Origin: Bacteroidia bacterium
Lineage (GTDB): Bacteria; Bacteroidota; Bacteroidia; Chitinophagales; Chitinophagaceae
Length of the DNA: 64,000 nt
Direction: 5' to 3'
NCBI GenBank assembly: GCA_030427635.1
Contig: JAUIBA010000005.1
Coordinates: 1-64,000, forward strand
How positions within the stretch are numbered: the first letter of the stretch is position 1; each line of letters opens with the position of its first letter. A program made the position numbers and the translations under genes. Positions 1,317 through 25,209 of the stretch are shown here, one piece after another. A model generated the notes under the pieces. The model did no database searches, was not told the DNA's origin, and was given only the letters and a program-made list of their open reading frames with translations.

Positions 1317-1889
1317 TTATTTCAGGTAATAGCGGTTTTCCTCTATGTACTTTTCCACCGCCCCAGGTACAATATATTTTATTGATTTCTGCTCTTTCAG
1401 CTGTCTGCGTATGTAGGTAGATGATATGTGCAGTAAAGGAGCATCCAGCAGTTGCACCTGTGCTCCATACCTGTCCTCCACCTCAAAACCCGGCCTGTTA
1501 TATACAATGAACGAGTAGCGCTCCACAAGTGTTTCAAAGTTCTTCCACCTGGGTAGGTTCTGGAAGCTATCAGCTCCCATTACTACAGAAAACTTCTCCA
1601 GAGGAAACTTTTCTGTAAGGTAGGCCAGCGTATCAATTGTATAGGACGGCTTAGGCAGATGAAACTCCACATTACTGGCCCTGAATTTCGGATTATCCTC
1701 TATTGCAATATTTACCAGATGCAGCCTGTCGTATTCATTAAGCAATGAATGAGAGTCTTTCAGTGGATTATGTGGAGAAACAACAAACCATATCTTGTCC
1801 ACATCTGTATGGTTCACTACATGATTTGCTACAATAAGATGTCCCGTATGAACAGGGTTAAAACTGCCGAAATATAATCCGATATGCAT
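1317..1889 (-). CDS. nadD: Nicotinate-nucleotide adenylyltransferase
   Basis: NadD adenylates nicotinate mononucleotide with ATP to form deamido-NAD in the cytoplasm, a step of NAD synthesis. The 190-residue length is normal for the family. The nucleotidyltransferase signature is visible: GSFNPVHTGHL at residues 8-18 (the HxGH-type ATP site), the substrate-pocket MGADSF at 104-109, and the ISSTYIRRQL motif at 155-164. It stands alone on the minus strand, with about 160 bp of non-coding DNA separating its start from the ccmF stop and about 110 bp to the YtxH-like gene. Confidence 0.95.
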   Translation of the reverse strand: MHIGLYFGSFNPVHTGHLIVANHVVNHTDVDKIWFVVSPHNPLKDSHSLLNEYDRLHLVNIAIEDNPKFRASNVEFHLPKPSYTIDTLAYLTEKFPLEKFSVVMGADSFQNLPRWKNFETLVERYSFIVYNRPGFEVEDRYGAQVQLLDAPLLHISSTYIRRQLKEQKSIKYIVPGAVEKYIEENRYYLK

Positions 1890-2048
1890 ATAGTATGTTG
1901 TGTGACCTGGAGTTGATAAAGTACCTGTAAAAAGCCACGCAAAACTACCACATAAACCCTAAAACTCTGTTACCAAATTACTGCATTACCATACAAATGC
2001 GGAAACAGAAGCCATGATATGTTTGCCTGCACATTTGTCAACACCTGC

Positions 2049-22572: not shown

Positions 22573-22580
22573 ATCAAATA
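22573..22580. repeat. Left target-site duplication of the IS1595 element
   Basis: ATCAAATA directly abuts the left inverted repeat and is repeated exactly at 25202-25209. Eight base pairs is the duplication length known for the IS1595 family. Confidence 0.93.
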
Positions 22581-22602
22581 GGTAACTATACCCACTTACA
22601 CG
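22581..22602 (+). repeat. Left terminal inverted repeat of the IS1595 element
   Basis: Begins GGTAACTATACCCAC; pairs with 25180-25201 with one mismatch (position 15) over 22 bp. It is likely the transposase binding and cleavage end. Confidence 0.93.
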
Positions 22603-22620
22603 TAAATGAAATTTAATTGC

Positions 22621-22646
22621 CATAAGTAGCAAAATGGCTACTTATG
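22621..22646 (-). terminator. Hairpin at the end of the 46-residue gene
   Basis: Perfect 10-bp stem CATAAGTAGC / GCTACTTATG with loop AAAATG; it contains the TAA stop of the minus-strand gene (22642-22644). The following minus-strand sequence is AT-rich but not a pure T tract, so it may terminate weakly. It could limit transcription out of the element into the adjacent PqqB-like gene. Confidence 0.55.
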
Positions 22647-22785
22647 ACTTTTTCTTAGGCTTGCTGTTAGCATCCTTCACAACAGCATCTATAAAGTCCA
22701 TAAACGTACCATTGACCTTTAATGACTGTTCTTCTTTCACACTTTTTGAGGGTGTGGGCTTAGATGTCTTTTTTGCCTTTGACAT
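22642..22785 (-). CDS. 46-residue unknown protein at the left end of the IS element
   Basis: An unrecognised small basic protein. I start it at 22785 (MSKAKKTSK) and not at the upstream Met, because the upstream 13 residues are hydrophobic and Cys-rich and overlap the divergent gene. The N-terminus is Lys/Ser/Pro-rich, then LKVNGTFMDFIDAVVKDAN and a Lys-rich end (KPKKKS). Small proteins of this layout, with one short amphipathic segment and a KPKKK tail, recur in Bacteroidota accessory DNA as I recall, without known function. A minus-strand TACATTTG at 22790-22797 lies four bases before the start, implying a nearly leaderless message. Confidence 0.6.
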   Translation of the reverse strand: MSKAKKTSKPTPSKSVKEEQSLKVNGTFMDFIDAVVKDANSKPKKKS

Positions 22786-22818
22786 ATCGCAAATGTAACA
22801 ATTAAATACAGCAAACAC

Positions 22819-23679
22819 ATGCAAACTATTGCTATTTTTATGCCGAGTGAGTACTTTACACCTGTTATGTCACCAAAACTCAAAGAAAAACTACGGCTTT
22901 GTAATGATGTTCTACAGGCTTTGTCGATCGAACAACCATACGTGGGTAATTACCCATCGCGATACCGCCAACTGGAGAATGAAGAAAATGAATTACCAGT
23001 TTGGGAGAAGTCGTGGATAAGCGCCCATATTGGAGTACCCTTAGACCTGCTTAACGATGCTATATTTATACTCGAAAATGATGAGTATATAAAAGTAAAG
23101 GGTGACTTATTATACCTCACTAAAAAAGGGAAAATATTCTTAATCAAAGAAGATGGGTATGACTATGGGCAAAATGAACCATTACCTGAACTTAATGTAG
23201 CTGATTTCATATTCAAAGACGGTATGTATATACCAAAACCAAAAGAAGAGCAAGAAATACGCTACCAATCGAAAATGTCAAAAAAGCAACGAACAACCCT
23301 CACAAAGTTTCTGAAAACAAATCAACTCGTAAATGACCCCGCCAAATTTGTCGCATTTCTTAATGGTGAAAATAACGGTGAAGGGATAGAAATAGTTGAC
23401 AACAACGATAACCTAACCGCAGTAACGCTTCTATTAAAAGAACTGCGCTCACGCAATCTAATTCAATTGAATTTTGGTAACGAGTTTAGAGAGTTTTTTA
23501 CCTCTAAAGTTCGTCCTTTCTCTATCCTACAAGGCAAAGAACAAATTGAACAATTTAGAAAGGAACTGAGAAAGCACAAGAACAAAGAATGGCTGGAAAG
23601 CCCGACAGCAAAGAACTTAGATACCCTTCTTAAGGCCTTAATTACCGCAGGTATCACAGTATTTGTCATTCCCCTTTAA
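22819..23679 (+). CDS. 286-residue unknown passenger protein of the IS element
   Basis: I do not recognise this protein. Residues about 15-115 look like a winged-helix unit (LCNDVLQALS ... WISAHIGVPLDLLNDAIFILENDEYIKVKGDLLYLTKKGKIFL is two helices, then a beta wing), the middle is acidic and linker-like with many Lys, about 170-235 is a second helix-rich domain, and the C-terminus is a short hydrophobic stretch (LKALITAGITVFVIPL), possibly a membrane anchor. The start is uncertain; Met17 (22867) is an alternative that would leave more room for divergent promoters. It is divergent from the 46-residue gene by 33 bp and lies 120 bp upstream of the tRNA-like gene. Confidence 0.7.
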   Translation: MQTIAIFMPSEYFTPVMSPKLKEKLRLCNDVLQALSIEQPYVGNYPSRYRQLENEENELPVWEKSWISAHIGVPLDLLNDAIFILENDEYIKVKGDLLYLTKKGKIFLIKEDGYDYGQNEPLPELNVADFIFKDGMYIPKPKEEQEIRYQSKMSKKQRTTLTKFLKTNQLVNDPAKFVAFLNGENNGEGIEIVDNNDNLTAVTLLLKELRSRNLIQLNFGNEFREFFTSKVRPFSILQGKEQIEQFRKELRKHKNKEWLESPTAKNLDTLLKALITAGITVFVIPL

Positions 23680-23765
23680 ACAGTTTGCACATTCTCAAAA
23701 GGGACATTTCAAACGCTTTTTTAACCGATAAACTACACTAACCTTTGGCATATCAAAACGAAAAA

Positions 23766-23787
23766 ACCACCTGCTCTAACAAGTGGT
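23766..23787 (-). terminator. Possible leftward terminator beside the tRNA-like gene
   Basis: ACCACCTG (23766-23773) pairs with CAAGTGGT (23780-23787) with one mismatch and a six-base loop. Read leftward it is followed by TTTTTTCGTTTT. It would stop transcription coming from the right, possibly antisense to the transposase. Confidence 0.45.
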
Positions 23788-23799
23788 CAATTCATTGAT

Positions 23800-23871
23800 G
23801 CGCCTGTAGTTTAATGGTCAAAACGGCTCCCTACTAAGTTGCTGATTTCGGTTCGACCCCGAACGGGCGCA
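23800..23871 (+). tRNA. tRNA-like gene with degenerate anticodon arm (would-be anticodon ACT)
   Basis: Seventy-two bases fold as a tRNA: acceptor GCGCCTG/CGGGCGC (one T-G pair), D stem GTTT/AAAC with GG in the loop, T stem TTCGG/CCGAA with loop TTCGACC, and discriminator A; T8, A14, G18-G19, T33, T54-T55-C56, A58 and C61 equivalents are all kept. The anticodon stem GCTCC/GTTGC has two mismatches, and the loop CTACTAA gives anticodon ACT, which should read AGU but on a short-variable-arm body unlike tRNA-Ser. One change from CTTCTAA (tRNA-Arg UCU) would explain it. CCA is not encoded. It lies inside the IS1595 element, 38 bp before the transposase. It may be a pseudo-tRNA, or a tRNA mimic. Confidence 0.7.
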
Positions 23872-23909
23872 CTACATAAAAGTACAAATTTCACAAACAC
23901 ACACCAAAA

Positions 23910-24932
23910 ATGGATTTCCCTTTTAAGACACTACAAGAATTCAACGAGTTCTTTAAGGACGAAAAGACCTGCTACGAGTTCTTAGAACAGCAACGCTGGG
24001 GCGGTACGCCTGTTTGTCCCCATTGTGGAAGTGTAAAGACACCTTACAAAGTAAAACCACGCGGCATGTTCAAAGATATACCGTCTTACAGATGTGCAGA
24101 GAAAGAATGTGACTTGCCTTTCACGGTTCGTACCGGAAGTATATTTGAGGGCAGCAAAATAGAATTGCGCAAATGGTTCCAGGCAGCATACGAAATTACC
24201 ACCAGCAAAAAAGGGATCAGTTCTGTAGAACTGGCAACACGGATCGGGGTAAGCCAAAAAAGTGGGTGGCTTTTAAACCACAAAATACGTAGCATGTTAC
24301 AAATGACGGCAACCACGCAGTTAGGTGAAAATGGCAACCATGTACAGGCCGATGAAACGTATGTGGGTGGCAAGAACAAGAACCGTCACAAGGATAAGAA
24401 AGTAGAAGGTTCACAAGGGCGTAGCGCGGCAGATAAAACGCCGGTGGTTGGCCTGATTGAAAAAGGTGGCCGGGTAATGACCTTCGTAACCGAGAACACC
24501 AACGCAGAAACCCTAAACCAAATAATTGAGGAAAATGTATGCGCAGGAGCCACCATTGTAACAGATGCTTACCGCTCCTATTCAACCATTGGTAACGCAT
24601 ACAACCACATCACCGTGAAGCACGAAGAAGGTGGATATGTGACAGAGCGAAACGGGCACAAGTTCCACACGCAGAACATCGAGAATTTTTGGAGCCAGTT
24701 AAAGCGTGGCTATGTCGGCATTTACCACTACATGTCACCTCAACACCTGCACAGGTATTGTAACGAATTCGCAACAAGATACAACATGAGAGGCGTAAGC
24801 AACCTATCCCGTTTCCTGTTCGTTATAAACAATAGCAACACAGAGCGCATTACTTACCGTACTTTAACTCCTAATATAGCAAACCCTAATCACCCAAAAA
24901 GAAAGTTACCCCCTACCAACTCTAGGCTTTAG
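23910..24932 (+). CDS. IS1595-family transposase (ISXO2-like)
   Basis: A 340-residue DDE-type transposase. The N-terminus has the family zinc ribbon: CPHCG (residues 31-35) and a second Cys pair in CAEKECD. Then comes an HTH-like segment (ISSVELATRIGVSQKSGWLLNHKIR) and the catalytic domain with QADETYVGG (first Asp), VTDAYRSY (second Asp) and IENFWSQLKRGYVGIYHYMS (third acidic residue, Glu). The reading frame is intact and of full length. It lies within the inverted repeats and next to the 8-bp duplication expected for this family, so it is likely active or recently active. It ends in a 27-bp tail-to-tail overlap with the small minus-strand gene. Confidence 0.95.
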   Translation: MDFPFKTLQEFNEFFKDEKTCYEFLEQQRWGGTPVCPHCGSVKTPYKVKPRGMFKDIPSYRCAEKECDLPFTVRTGSIFEGSKIELRKWFQAAYEITTSKKGISSVELATRIGVSQKSGWLLNHKIRSMLQMTATTQLGENGNHVQADETYVGGKNKNRHKDKKVEGSQGRSAADKTPVVGLIEKGGRVMTFVTENTNAETLNQIIEENVCAGATIVTDAYRSYSTIGNAYNHITVKHEEGGYVTERNGHKFHTQNIENFWSQLKRGYVGIYHYMSPQHLHRYCNEFATRYNMRGVSNLSRFLFVINNSNTERITYRTLTPNIANPNHPKRKLPPTNSRL

Positions 24933-25142
24933 CTCGGCTAATACCTTATCAATCGCAGACTTTGCGGAAGCAGCATTTTCAGACACAACACTTATATATG
25001 AGGGGGCGCCGTTTCTATCTTGCACAATGTATGCGCTCTCTTTTTCTAACCCTTGCAAGAGCTTTATGTCAATGGGATCTTCCAAAACATACGGATCCCC
25101 CTGACACACATAATTCTTAATCATTCCGGTGTAATATTTCAT
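24906..25142 (-). CDS. 78-residue unknown protein at the right end of the IS element
   Basis: Unrecognised. I start at the Met at 25142 (MKYYTGMIKNYVCQGDPYV), as the longer frame would run close to the inverted repeat. The body (YIVQDRNGAPSYISVVSENAASAKSAIDKVLAELKPR) predicts two or three strands and a long helix, a compact alpha/beta fold. It has no signal peptide. Its 3' end overlaps the transposase by 27 bp on the opposite strand. Being inside the inverted repeats, it travels with the element; whether it is expressed is not known. Confidence 0.6.
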   Translation of the reverse strand: MKYYTGMIKNYVCQGDPYVLEDPIDIKLLQGLEKESAYIVQDRNGAPSYISVVSENAASAKSAIDKVLAELKPRVGRG

Positions 25143-25179
25143 ATTACAAACATAAATTAAATTTCCTAAAATCAATTCC

Positions 25180-25201
25180 CGTGTAACTGGGTATAGTTAC
25201 C
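25180..25201 (-). repeat. Right terminal inverted repeat of the IS1595 element
   Basis: Reverse complement begins GGTAACTATACCCAG and matches the left end at 21 of 22 positions. Confidence 0.93.
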
Positions 25202-25209
25202 ATCAAATA
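25202..25209. repeat. Right target-site duplication of the IS1595 element
   Basis: ATCAAATA, identical to 22573-22580, adjoining the right inverted repeat. It lies 22 bp beyond the tonB stop codon. Confidence 0.93.

Follow-up and report, generated by a model that had tools for sequence, protein, structure and literature searches.

Is a tRNA-like gene that has a broken anticodon arm and lies inside an IS element a captured host gene in decay, or an RNA that the element uses? The question is raised by a gene in the window, that is, the whole 64,000-nucleotide stretch of Bacteroidia bacterium DNA analyzed here. A first-pass annotation had considered a tRNA mimic used by the element and had taken a decayed tRNA-Arg(UCU) to be the simpler explanation; of these two readings, the mimic is the one favored by the comparisons described below.

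The tRNA-Like Gene and Its Anticodon Arm

ARAGORN makes a single tRNA call in the whole window, a tRNA-Ser(act) at 23800–23872, and the gene matches Rfam RF00005 over the entire covariance model with 52.8 bits (cut-off 29; E 1.7e-8), confirming the tRNA-like gene annotated at first pass. By folding energy alone the gene does not stand out (z −1.3; 22 of 200 shuffled sequences do equally well), and support for it comes from the covariance score and from its relatives. The landmarks T8, A14, GG, TTCGA and the T stem are present as first annotated, as are the anticodon ACT and two mismatched anticodon-stem pairs (29-41, T.T; 30-40, C.T). The host genome also encodes a tRNA-Arg(tct) and a tRNA-Ser(gct) of its own.

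23800..23871, + strand: tRNA-like RNA with anticodon ACT, short variable loop and A73, CCA not encoded (ARAGORN, Rfam, covariation)
23826..23842, + strand: anticodon arm, GCTCCCTACTAAGTTGC, with the same letters in the window, L034 and L035; two stem pairs mismatched

The IS1595 Element

The tRNA-like gene sits within an intact IS1595-family element (22581–25201) and ends 38 nt upstream of the transposase start. Its carriage by an IS element, proposed at first pass, is borne out by inverted repeats (22581–22615 and 25167–25201) and a perfect 8-bp duplication, ATCAAATA; duplication of 8 bp is a trait of the IS1595 family, and both transposase domains (PF12762 and PF12760) score above their cut-offs. 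The element is single-copy in its own genome, where the sole other DNA match is 54 bases long.

22573..22580, no strand: left 8-bp target-site duplication, ATCAAATA, matching 25202–25209 exactly
22581..22615, + strand: left terminal inverted repeat, beginning GGTAACTATACCCA, 83% complementary across 35 nt
22819..23679, + strand: passenger ORF of 286 aa, with a weak winged-helix hint (best Pfam match HTH_45, E 0.018, under the cut-off)
23910..24932, + strand: IS1595-family transposase of 340 aa (zinc ribbon PF12760, E 1.4e-11; ISXO2-like DDE PF12762, E 1.1e-39)
25167..25201, − strand: right terminal inverted repeat, pairing with 22581–22615
25202..25209, no strand: right 8-bp target-site duplication, ATCAAATA, matching 22573–22580

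Passenger ORFs differ among elements (window, 22819–23679; L033, L034, L035, L124, L087), and those of L034 and L124 have a similar C-terminus by eye. None of six passenger ORFs of IS1595 elements reaches a Pfam cut-off (best E 0.0065, in L034).

Conservation among the Closest Elements

Three elements (L033, L034, L035) with transposases 78–82% identical to that of the window also have the tRNA-like gene, at the corresponding position. Both sides have changed in 10 of 20 base pairs across the four elements; the alignment is small (four sequences), and slid versions of it reach no more than 2 pairs of this kind. Pairing is complete (100%) in the acceptor, D and T helices and 70% in the anticodon helix; a regular 5-bp anticodon stem is lacking in the window, L034 and L035 (2/5 pairs unpaired), and the stem is paired in L033. 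Between the window and L035, a comparison picked after the alignment had been seen, the anticodon arm (columns 28–44) has 0/17 differences and the rest 16/55 (one-sided Fisher p 0.007). The anticodon loop CT[A/G]CTAA (CTACTAA or CTGCTAA) is common to all four.

The window gene is probably not a dying tRNA, because it occupies the same slot in three relatives, shows compensatory changes in the acceptor, D and T stems, and is best conserved in its anticodon arm. Decay of a tRNA-Arg(UCU) is thus not the favored explanation, given the co-changed pairs and the full pairing of those three helices. The earlier suggestion that selection had held the acceptor and T arms but not decoding does not agree with these data: covariation is found in the acceptor and T stems of the aligned elements, but the drift expected in the anticodon arm is not. 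The arm probably departs from that of a host tRNA because it has another job, being matched by a predicted antisense RNA in a wider set of elements.

Occurrence beside IS1595 Transposases

Transposase loci were sampled from the genome contig collection, the window's family, the window's order, Saccharibacteria and further regions, and were scanned with a tRNA covariance model, R1 (303 distinct sources; 314 entries, 11 doubled), which includes the IS tRNAs of the window and L033–L035. With L001 (the window's own element) and L002 excluded from 274 loci, 272 distinct loci were scanned, of which 259 had room upstream; neither L198 nor L304 enters this count, the space being too short or the distance above 450 nt. 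A tRNA match lies within 450 nt upstream on the transposase strand in 22/259 distinct loci, compared with 0/259 on the opposite strand upstream, 3/257 on each strand downstream and 0/254 at 450–900 nt upstream (upstream versus downstream on the same strand, Fisher p 1e-4). Among these 22, L213 proved to be an ordinary tRNA-Leu with no module and was dropped from the working set. A second model built from IS tRNA-likes, R2, added L148, L233, L285 and L290; its source sequences are rich in G3:U70, and its four additions, all with G3:U70, are biased to that extent.

The working set comprises 29 tRNA-likes beside IS1595 transposases, 15 from Bacteroidota (window, L033, L034, L035, L087, L124, L132, L148, L161, L171, L198, L271, L304, L307, L343) and 14 from Saccharibacteria (L190 = L095, L191 = L094, L210, L224, L225, L226, L233, L239, L249, L252, L255, L285, L287, L290). 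All except L271, which is downstream, lie 16–434 nt upstream of the transposase match (28/29). Inverted repeats and a perfect 8-bp target duplication enclose fourteen of them; for the remaining 15, often with little flanking sequence, no such element ends were found. An alternative method recovered the 8-bp duplication in 11 elements (L307 being new), and L087, L224 and L304 are from the first method alone. Presence of the tRNA-like gene is patchy among close transposase relatives: a transposase tree (265 proteins, 21 labeled) requires at least 15 label changes, a rough picture in which the window row was entered as module-less and there was no shuffled control. A tRNA-like gene ahead of the transposase was found in none of 12 plasmid or viral loci (4 plasmid, 8 viral-contig); the two tRNAs in L350 lie elsewhere.

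Several neighboring features were observed in this survey. L141 has an ordinary-looking tRNA (1854–1928, minus strand) 72 nt past the end of the IS1595 transposase match, with no antisense module apparent. L178 (4970–5040) and L179 (5075–5145; both in reverse-complement coordinates) give weak R2 matches outside the slot, both with G3:U70 and each preceded by an antisense-type hairpin; their 5′ ends, GGGGGCTGTTCTGG and GGGGGATGTTCTGG, resemble a tmRNA start, and modules may occur away from transposases. In L124, L132 and L198, the motif TTTTGGCAC(G/A)-N4-TTTGGA, which we take to resemble a sigma-54 promoter upstream of the transposase, lies between the tRNA-like gene and the transposase. Four of the 274 loci (L217, L219, L223, L240; Saccharibacteria IS1595) have a different structured RNA in the same slot, 130–166 nt before the transposase, with a 10–11 bp stem, an internal loop, a second stem with a 9-nt loop and the end TGGCCA, followed by an A-run and a GC hairpin; it has no Rfam match up to E 1.

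Antisense RNAs Predicted Opposite the Anticodon Arm

In 15/29 tRNA-likes (12/25 of the first set and 3/4 later finds), a stretch of 10–17 nt from the anticodon arm is repeated on the same strand, within the searched 300 nt upstream or 200 nt downstream of the tRNA-like gene (minimum 10 nt). All of the copied stretches fall within tRNA positions 24–45. Ordinary tRNAs have a match of at least 10 nt in 4/35 cases, all four being repeats of tRNA sequence. The copies are element-specific: the 12 compared match their own tRNA over 10–17 nt and other tRNAs over 5–7 nt at best. Read on the opposite strand, each copy is preceded by a promoter-like box and followed by a GC-rich hairpin with a T-run (by eye). 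The box of the Saccharibacteria elements takes the form of an extended −10 (TGCTATAAT, TGCTAAAAT, TGCTACAAT), with at least 7/8 matches in 8/10 elements versus 1.5% of shuffles. This copy type is predicted to encode an RNA of about 45 nt, in which a 10–17 nt seed with perfect complementarity to the anticodon arm is followed by a terminator.

The arrangement of the module varies. The antisense unit is upstream of the tRNA-like gene in L124 and L132, and the whole module is downstream of the transposase in L271. L224 has an apparent deletion between arm and copy that places the antisense −10 inside the tRNA; an intact antisense unit is absent from it and from L198, L304 and L307 (4/29), the last three having neither a copy nor the full-antisense arrangement described below. 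In Saccharibacteria elements such as L191 and L239, the tRNA-like gene is preceded (by eye) by a TATAAT-like box, then a leader and a hairpin of terminator type with a T-run, and attenuation of the mimic is possible.

No separate arm copy is present in the window, L033, L034, L035, L087, L161, L171, L343, L148 or L271. In each of these ten the tRNA is bracketed, as read, by a TAnnTTT[A/G] box past its 3′ end and a minus-strand terminator just past its 5′ end. In all ten, the window included, these signals predict an antisense RNA to the whole tRNA; those of the window are as follows.

23761..23788, − strand: predicted intrinsic terminator, GACCACTTG-TTAGAG-CAGGTGGTT then T-run, score 12, starting 11 nt from the tRNA 5′ end; in the same place in L033, L034 and L035
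23877..23884, − strand: predicted −7 box, TACTTTTA, 4 nt past the 3′ end called by ARAGORN; would set the start of the predicted antisense RNA
23761..23873, − strand: predicted antisense RNA of about 110 nt, whole-tRNA complement plus terminator, inferred from the box and terminator signals

We take TACTTTTA to resemble the Bacteroidota promoter box TAnnTTTG. A −7 box lies within 30 nt in 9/9 full-antisense elements versus 0.81 expected, in a set chosen after the pattern was seen and leaving out L271, where the box is further off. With a strict terminator definition whose threshold was also set once the pattern was seen (score at least 10, start within 20 nt), 8/25 IS tRNAs (window, L033, L034, L035, L161, L171, L343, L271) have a terminator versus 0/35 host tRNAs; with a loose definition there is no excess (10/25 versus 13/35).

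Possible Charging and Decoding of the tRNA-Like RNAs

G3:U70 is present in 14/29 tRNA-likes, 13 of them with A73 (L198 has T73). L224, in which the acceptor is unpaired, is left out of the G3:U70 count, which changes 11/26 to 10/25. In two hosts, G3:U70 occurs in tRNA-Ala alone (1/31 and 1/33 distinct tRNAs examined, of 42 and 44 Rfam matches). The identity table of PMC9976931 gives A73, G2-C71, G3.U70, G4-C69 and G20 for bacterial alanine, with no anticodon determinant in that table, and includes A20, C35, U/G36 and A/G73 for bacterial arginine (PMC9976931). None of the 14 G3:U70 tRNA-likes has an Ala anticodon (ARAGORN where called, the remainder by eye); ARAGORN reads gaa in L087, tcc in L124, atc in L161, tga in L198 and gcg in L233, and L225 and L191 are irregular. 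Ala-type anticodons occur without G3:U70 in L095 (agc, ARAGORN) and L239 (GGC, by eye). The G3:U70 mimics would be charged by AlaRS, and we consider it somewhat more likely than not that the mimic is aminoacylated.

The window gene has G3-C70 and so lacks the alanine signal. Its group, without G3:U70, keeps C35, U36 and A73, which makes ArgRS a candidate, and its members are perhaps charged by that enzyme; with A34 or G34 they would read the Ser codons AGU/AGC. Position 20 is T in the window, and A20 is found, as read, only in L035 within the group. Because both G3:U70 and A20 are absent, charging of the window RNA is uncertain. The window, L132, L148, L171 and L343 have irregular arms with no normal 5-bp stem by eye, which makes their decoding doubtful. 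L171 and L148 also have an irregular D arm and keep the acceptor and T arm, a layout like that of the alanine minihelix.

A separate group of tRNA-Arg(UCU)-like units was observed in tandem, about 138 nt each and missing the 5′ acceptor strand, in L386 (480–1000; in the window's genome, G000:C1:179979-180499) and L006 (1150–1250). Their anticodon arm contains a CCTGCCTGCCGGCAGGCAGG palindrome, successive units are separated by a terminator-like hairpin, and ahead of the true tRNA-Arg(tct) there is a further copy with a similar palindrome.

A Probable Mobile Pair of RNAs

The locus very probably encodes an IS-borne pair of RNAs, a tRNA mimic and an antisense RNA against its anticodon arm. The evidence at the level of sequence is the tRNA fold, the covariation, the place in transposing elements (14/29), the duplication of the arm and the promoter- and terminator-like signals of the antisense strand, from which we infer RNA production, charging, harm and masking. 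In the proposed mechanism, the element would make both the mimic and an opposite-strand antisense RNA, the latter either as an RNA of about 45 nt from a separate arm copy (15/29) or as a whole-tRNA antisense RNA (the window type). The antisense RNA would cover the anticodon arm and thereby block decoding or mark the mimic for decay, and free mimic would be charged and cause mistranslation, or jam ribosomes or synthetases. The mimic would often be alanine-accepting with assorted anticodons; in the window group it would have the body of an Arg tRNA and read Ser codons. If the element were lost, the short antisense RNA would be gone first and the stable mimic would remain, which is the logic of addiction.

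The likeliest use appears to be that of an RNA-only addiction (toxin–antitoxin) module, through which the element would be retained by its host, although we place it a little short of an even chance. The same tentative standing, at the upper end of that range, applies to the explanation as a whole: a mobile RNA pair in which a chargeable mimic is silenced by an arm-masking antisense RNA, perhaps as an addiction module. Slightly more tentative is the proposal of a new class of RNA-only addiction module in IS1595 elements of Bacteroidota and Saccharibacteria, in which a mis-chargeable mimic would harm translation unless a dedicated antisense RNA covers its arm. Several observations count against the explanation as a whole: the Ala-type anticodons of L095 and L239, needless for a pure mistranslator; the window element itself, which has no separate copy and antisense-strand signals alone; the uncertain charging of the window RNA; the arms with no normal stem; the loose terminator count; the four elements that lack an intact antisense unit; and the patchy presence among close relatives, with none upstream of the transposase at the plasmid and viral loci.

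Alternative Explanations

The best-surviving alternative is control of transposition or insulation, in which the tRNA would be a processing barrier (RNase P/RNase Z) that keeps transcripts from reading through into the transposase, and would be tuned by the antisense RNA. IS elements are known to restrict transcription that enters from outside, and the gene has a fixed site just upstream of the transposase on the same strand. However, in several Saccharibacteria elements a promoter for the transposase itself follows the module (by eye), and a barrier does not need an arm-specific antisense RNA. Control of the transposase is made less likely by the variable module order (L124, L132, L271) and by the short matches of the seed to the transposase mRNA, 5–7 nt in 13/15 elements and 9 nt in L226 and L287. 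We regard insulation as unlikely.

A sponge, in which the small RNA targets host tRNAs or mRNAs and is soaked up by the tRNA-like RNA, is less probable still. A decoy would need the same-strand duplication, and tRNA fragments can serve as sponges, e.g., the 3′ETS of leuZ; but the seeds differ from element to element so that no common target fits, and the longest arm match to host tRNAs is 9 nt for L190 (versus 33 tRNAs) and 7 nt for the window (versus 31), in two hosts and part of their tRNAs.

Candidate targets for the antisense RNA were also tried separately and rejected. For the transposase mRNA, the longest seed match is 5–9 nt versus shuffle means of 5.7–6.5 in the 15 copy-type elements. 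Host tRNAs match the arm over at most 9 nt (two hosts). As for a guide in target choice, the target duplications are unlike the arms by eye.

That the gene is a working extra tRNA supplementing decoding of element or host, with the antisense RNA as dosage control, is quite improbable: L095, L033, L226 and L255 have regular-looking arms with U33 and a 7-nt loop (by eye), but several other arms are irregular, synthetase signal and anticodon disagree in 14/29 (G3:U70, no Ala anticodon), and a supplementary tRNA does not require a dedicated antisense RNA. Least probable of all is a captured host tRNA, tRNA-Arg(UCU)-like, decaying without function, for which the stem mismatches, a Ser anticodon on a short-variable-arm tRNA and the genome's own Arg(tct) and Ser(gct) tRNAs would speak, but which is opposed by compensatory acceptor-, D- and T-stem changes across four elements, by an arm more conserved than the remainder and by recurrence in the same slot of distant elements.

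Relation to Known Systems and Implications

The proposed mimic–antisense pair has parallels in several known systems. IS10 RNA-OUT, an antisense RNA of an IS element, is transcribed from a promoter of its own next to the transposase, and the RNA predicted here is likewise IS-encoded, with a predicted promoter, and adjacent to a transposase; its target, however, would be a tRNA-like RNA, the transposase mRNA being matched by the real seeds scarcely better than by shuffled ones. In T-box leaders, which have a specifier loop and an antiterminator that binds the tRNA 3′ end, a non-coding RNA base-pairs with a tRNA anticodon, and here too the anticodon would be read by base pairing, but by a short, free, terminated RNA opposite the arm copy, with the anti-anticodon as its 5′ end, rather than by the 5′ leader of a gene; no T-box was found in the window at Rfam cut-offs. 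Like tmRNA and the tRNA-Ala minihelix, some of these RNAs keep G3:U70, A73 and the T arm and lose the anticodon arm and sometimes the D arm (L171, L148; L178 and L179 outside the slot), and L225 gives a weak score against the tmRNA model (23.5 bits, below the cut-off of 47). Unlike in tmRNA, no mRNA-like domain was seen, and the window group lacks G3:U70.

Carriage of a structured RNA by an IS is shared with IStrons, which combine an IS with a group I intron; as outlined in PMC4227781, theirs is a self-splicing intron, whereas here it would be a tRNA/antisense pair (PMC4227781). The accessible text of PMC12737573 describes type VIII toxin–antitoxin systems as RNA–RNA systems, CreTA being one in which CreT targets translation and ties up tRNA-UCU (PMC12737573). 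A parallel to type VIII systems would be that both partners, as predicted here, are RNAs and that the host is addicted to the locus. As far as that text describes CreTA, the difference is that CreA is a crRNA-like guide of Cascade, whereas here a plain antisense RNA would have an anticodon-arm seed, its partner would be a tRNA mimic and toxicity is proposed (PMC12737573). A literature search gave no tRNA-like/antisense pair in an IS element among the matches listed, with most subscription journals outside its coverage, and this is no proof of novelty. The IS-borne tRNA/antisense pair would stand beside type VIII if addiction holds. We know of no published IS-borne pair of this kind that spans two phyla.

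The predicted presence of the pair in two distant phyla, Bacteroidota and Saccharibacteria, is of note even without the addiction step. If the proposed reading is true, simple IS elements would be able to carry RNA cassettes beside the transposase, and such cassettes would be a natural source of anti-anticodon RNAs and mistranslating tRNAs and could explain odd genome calls of the tRNA-Ser(act) type. A selfish RNA pair would then have tRNA itself as its effector, and its specificity would lie in the anticodon arm and the antisense RNA to that arm.
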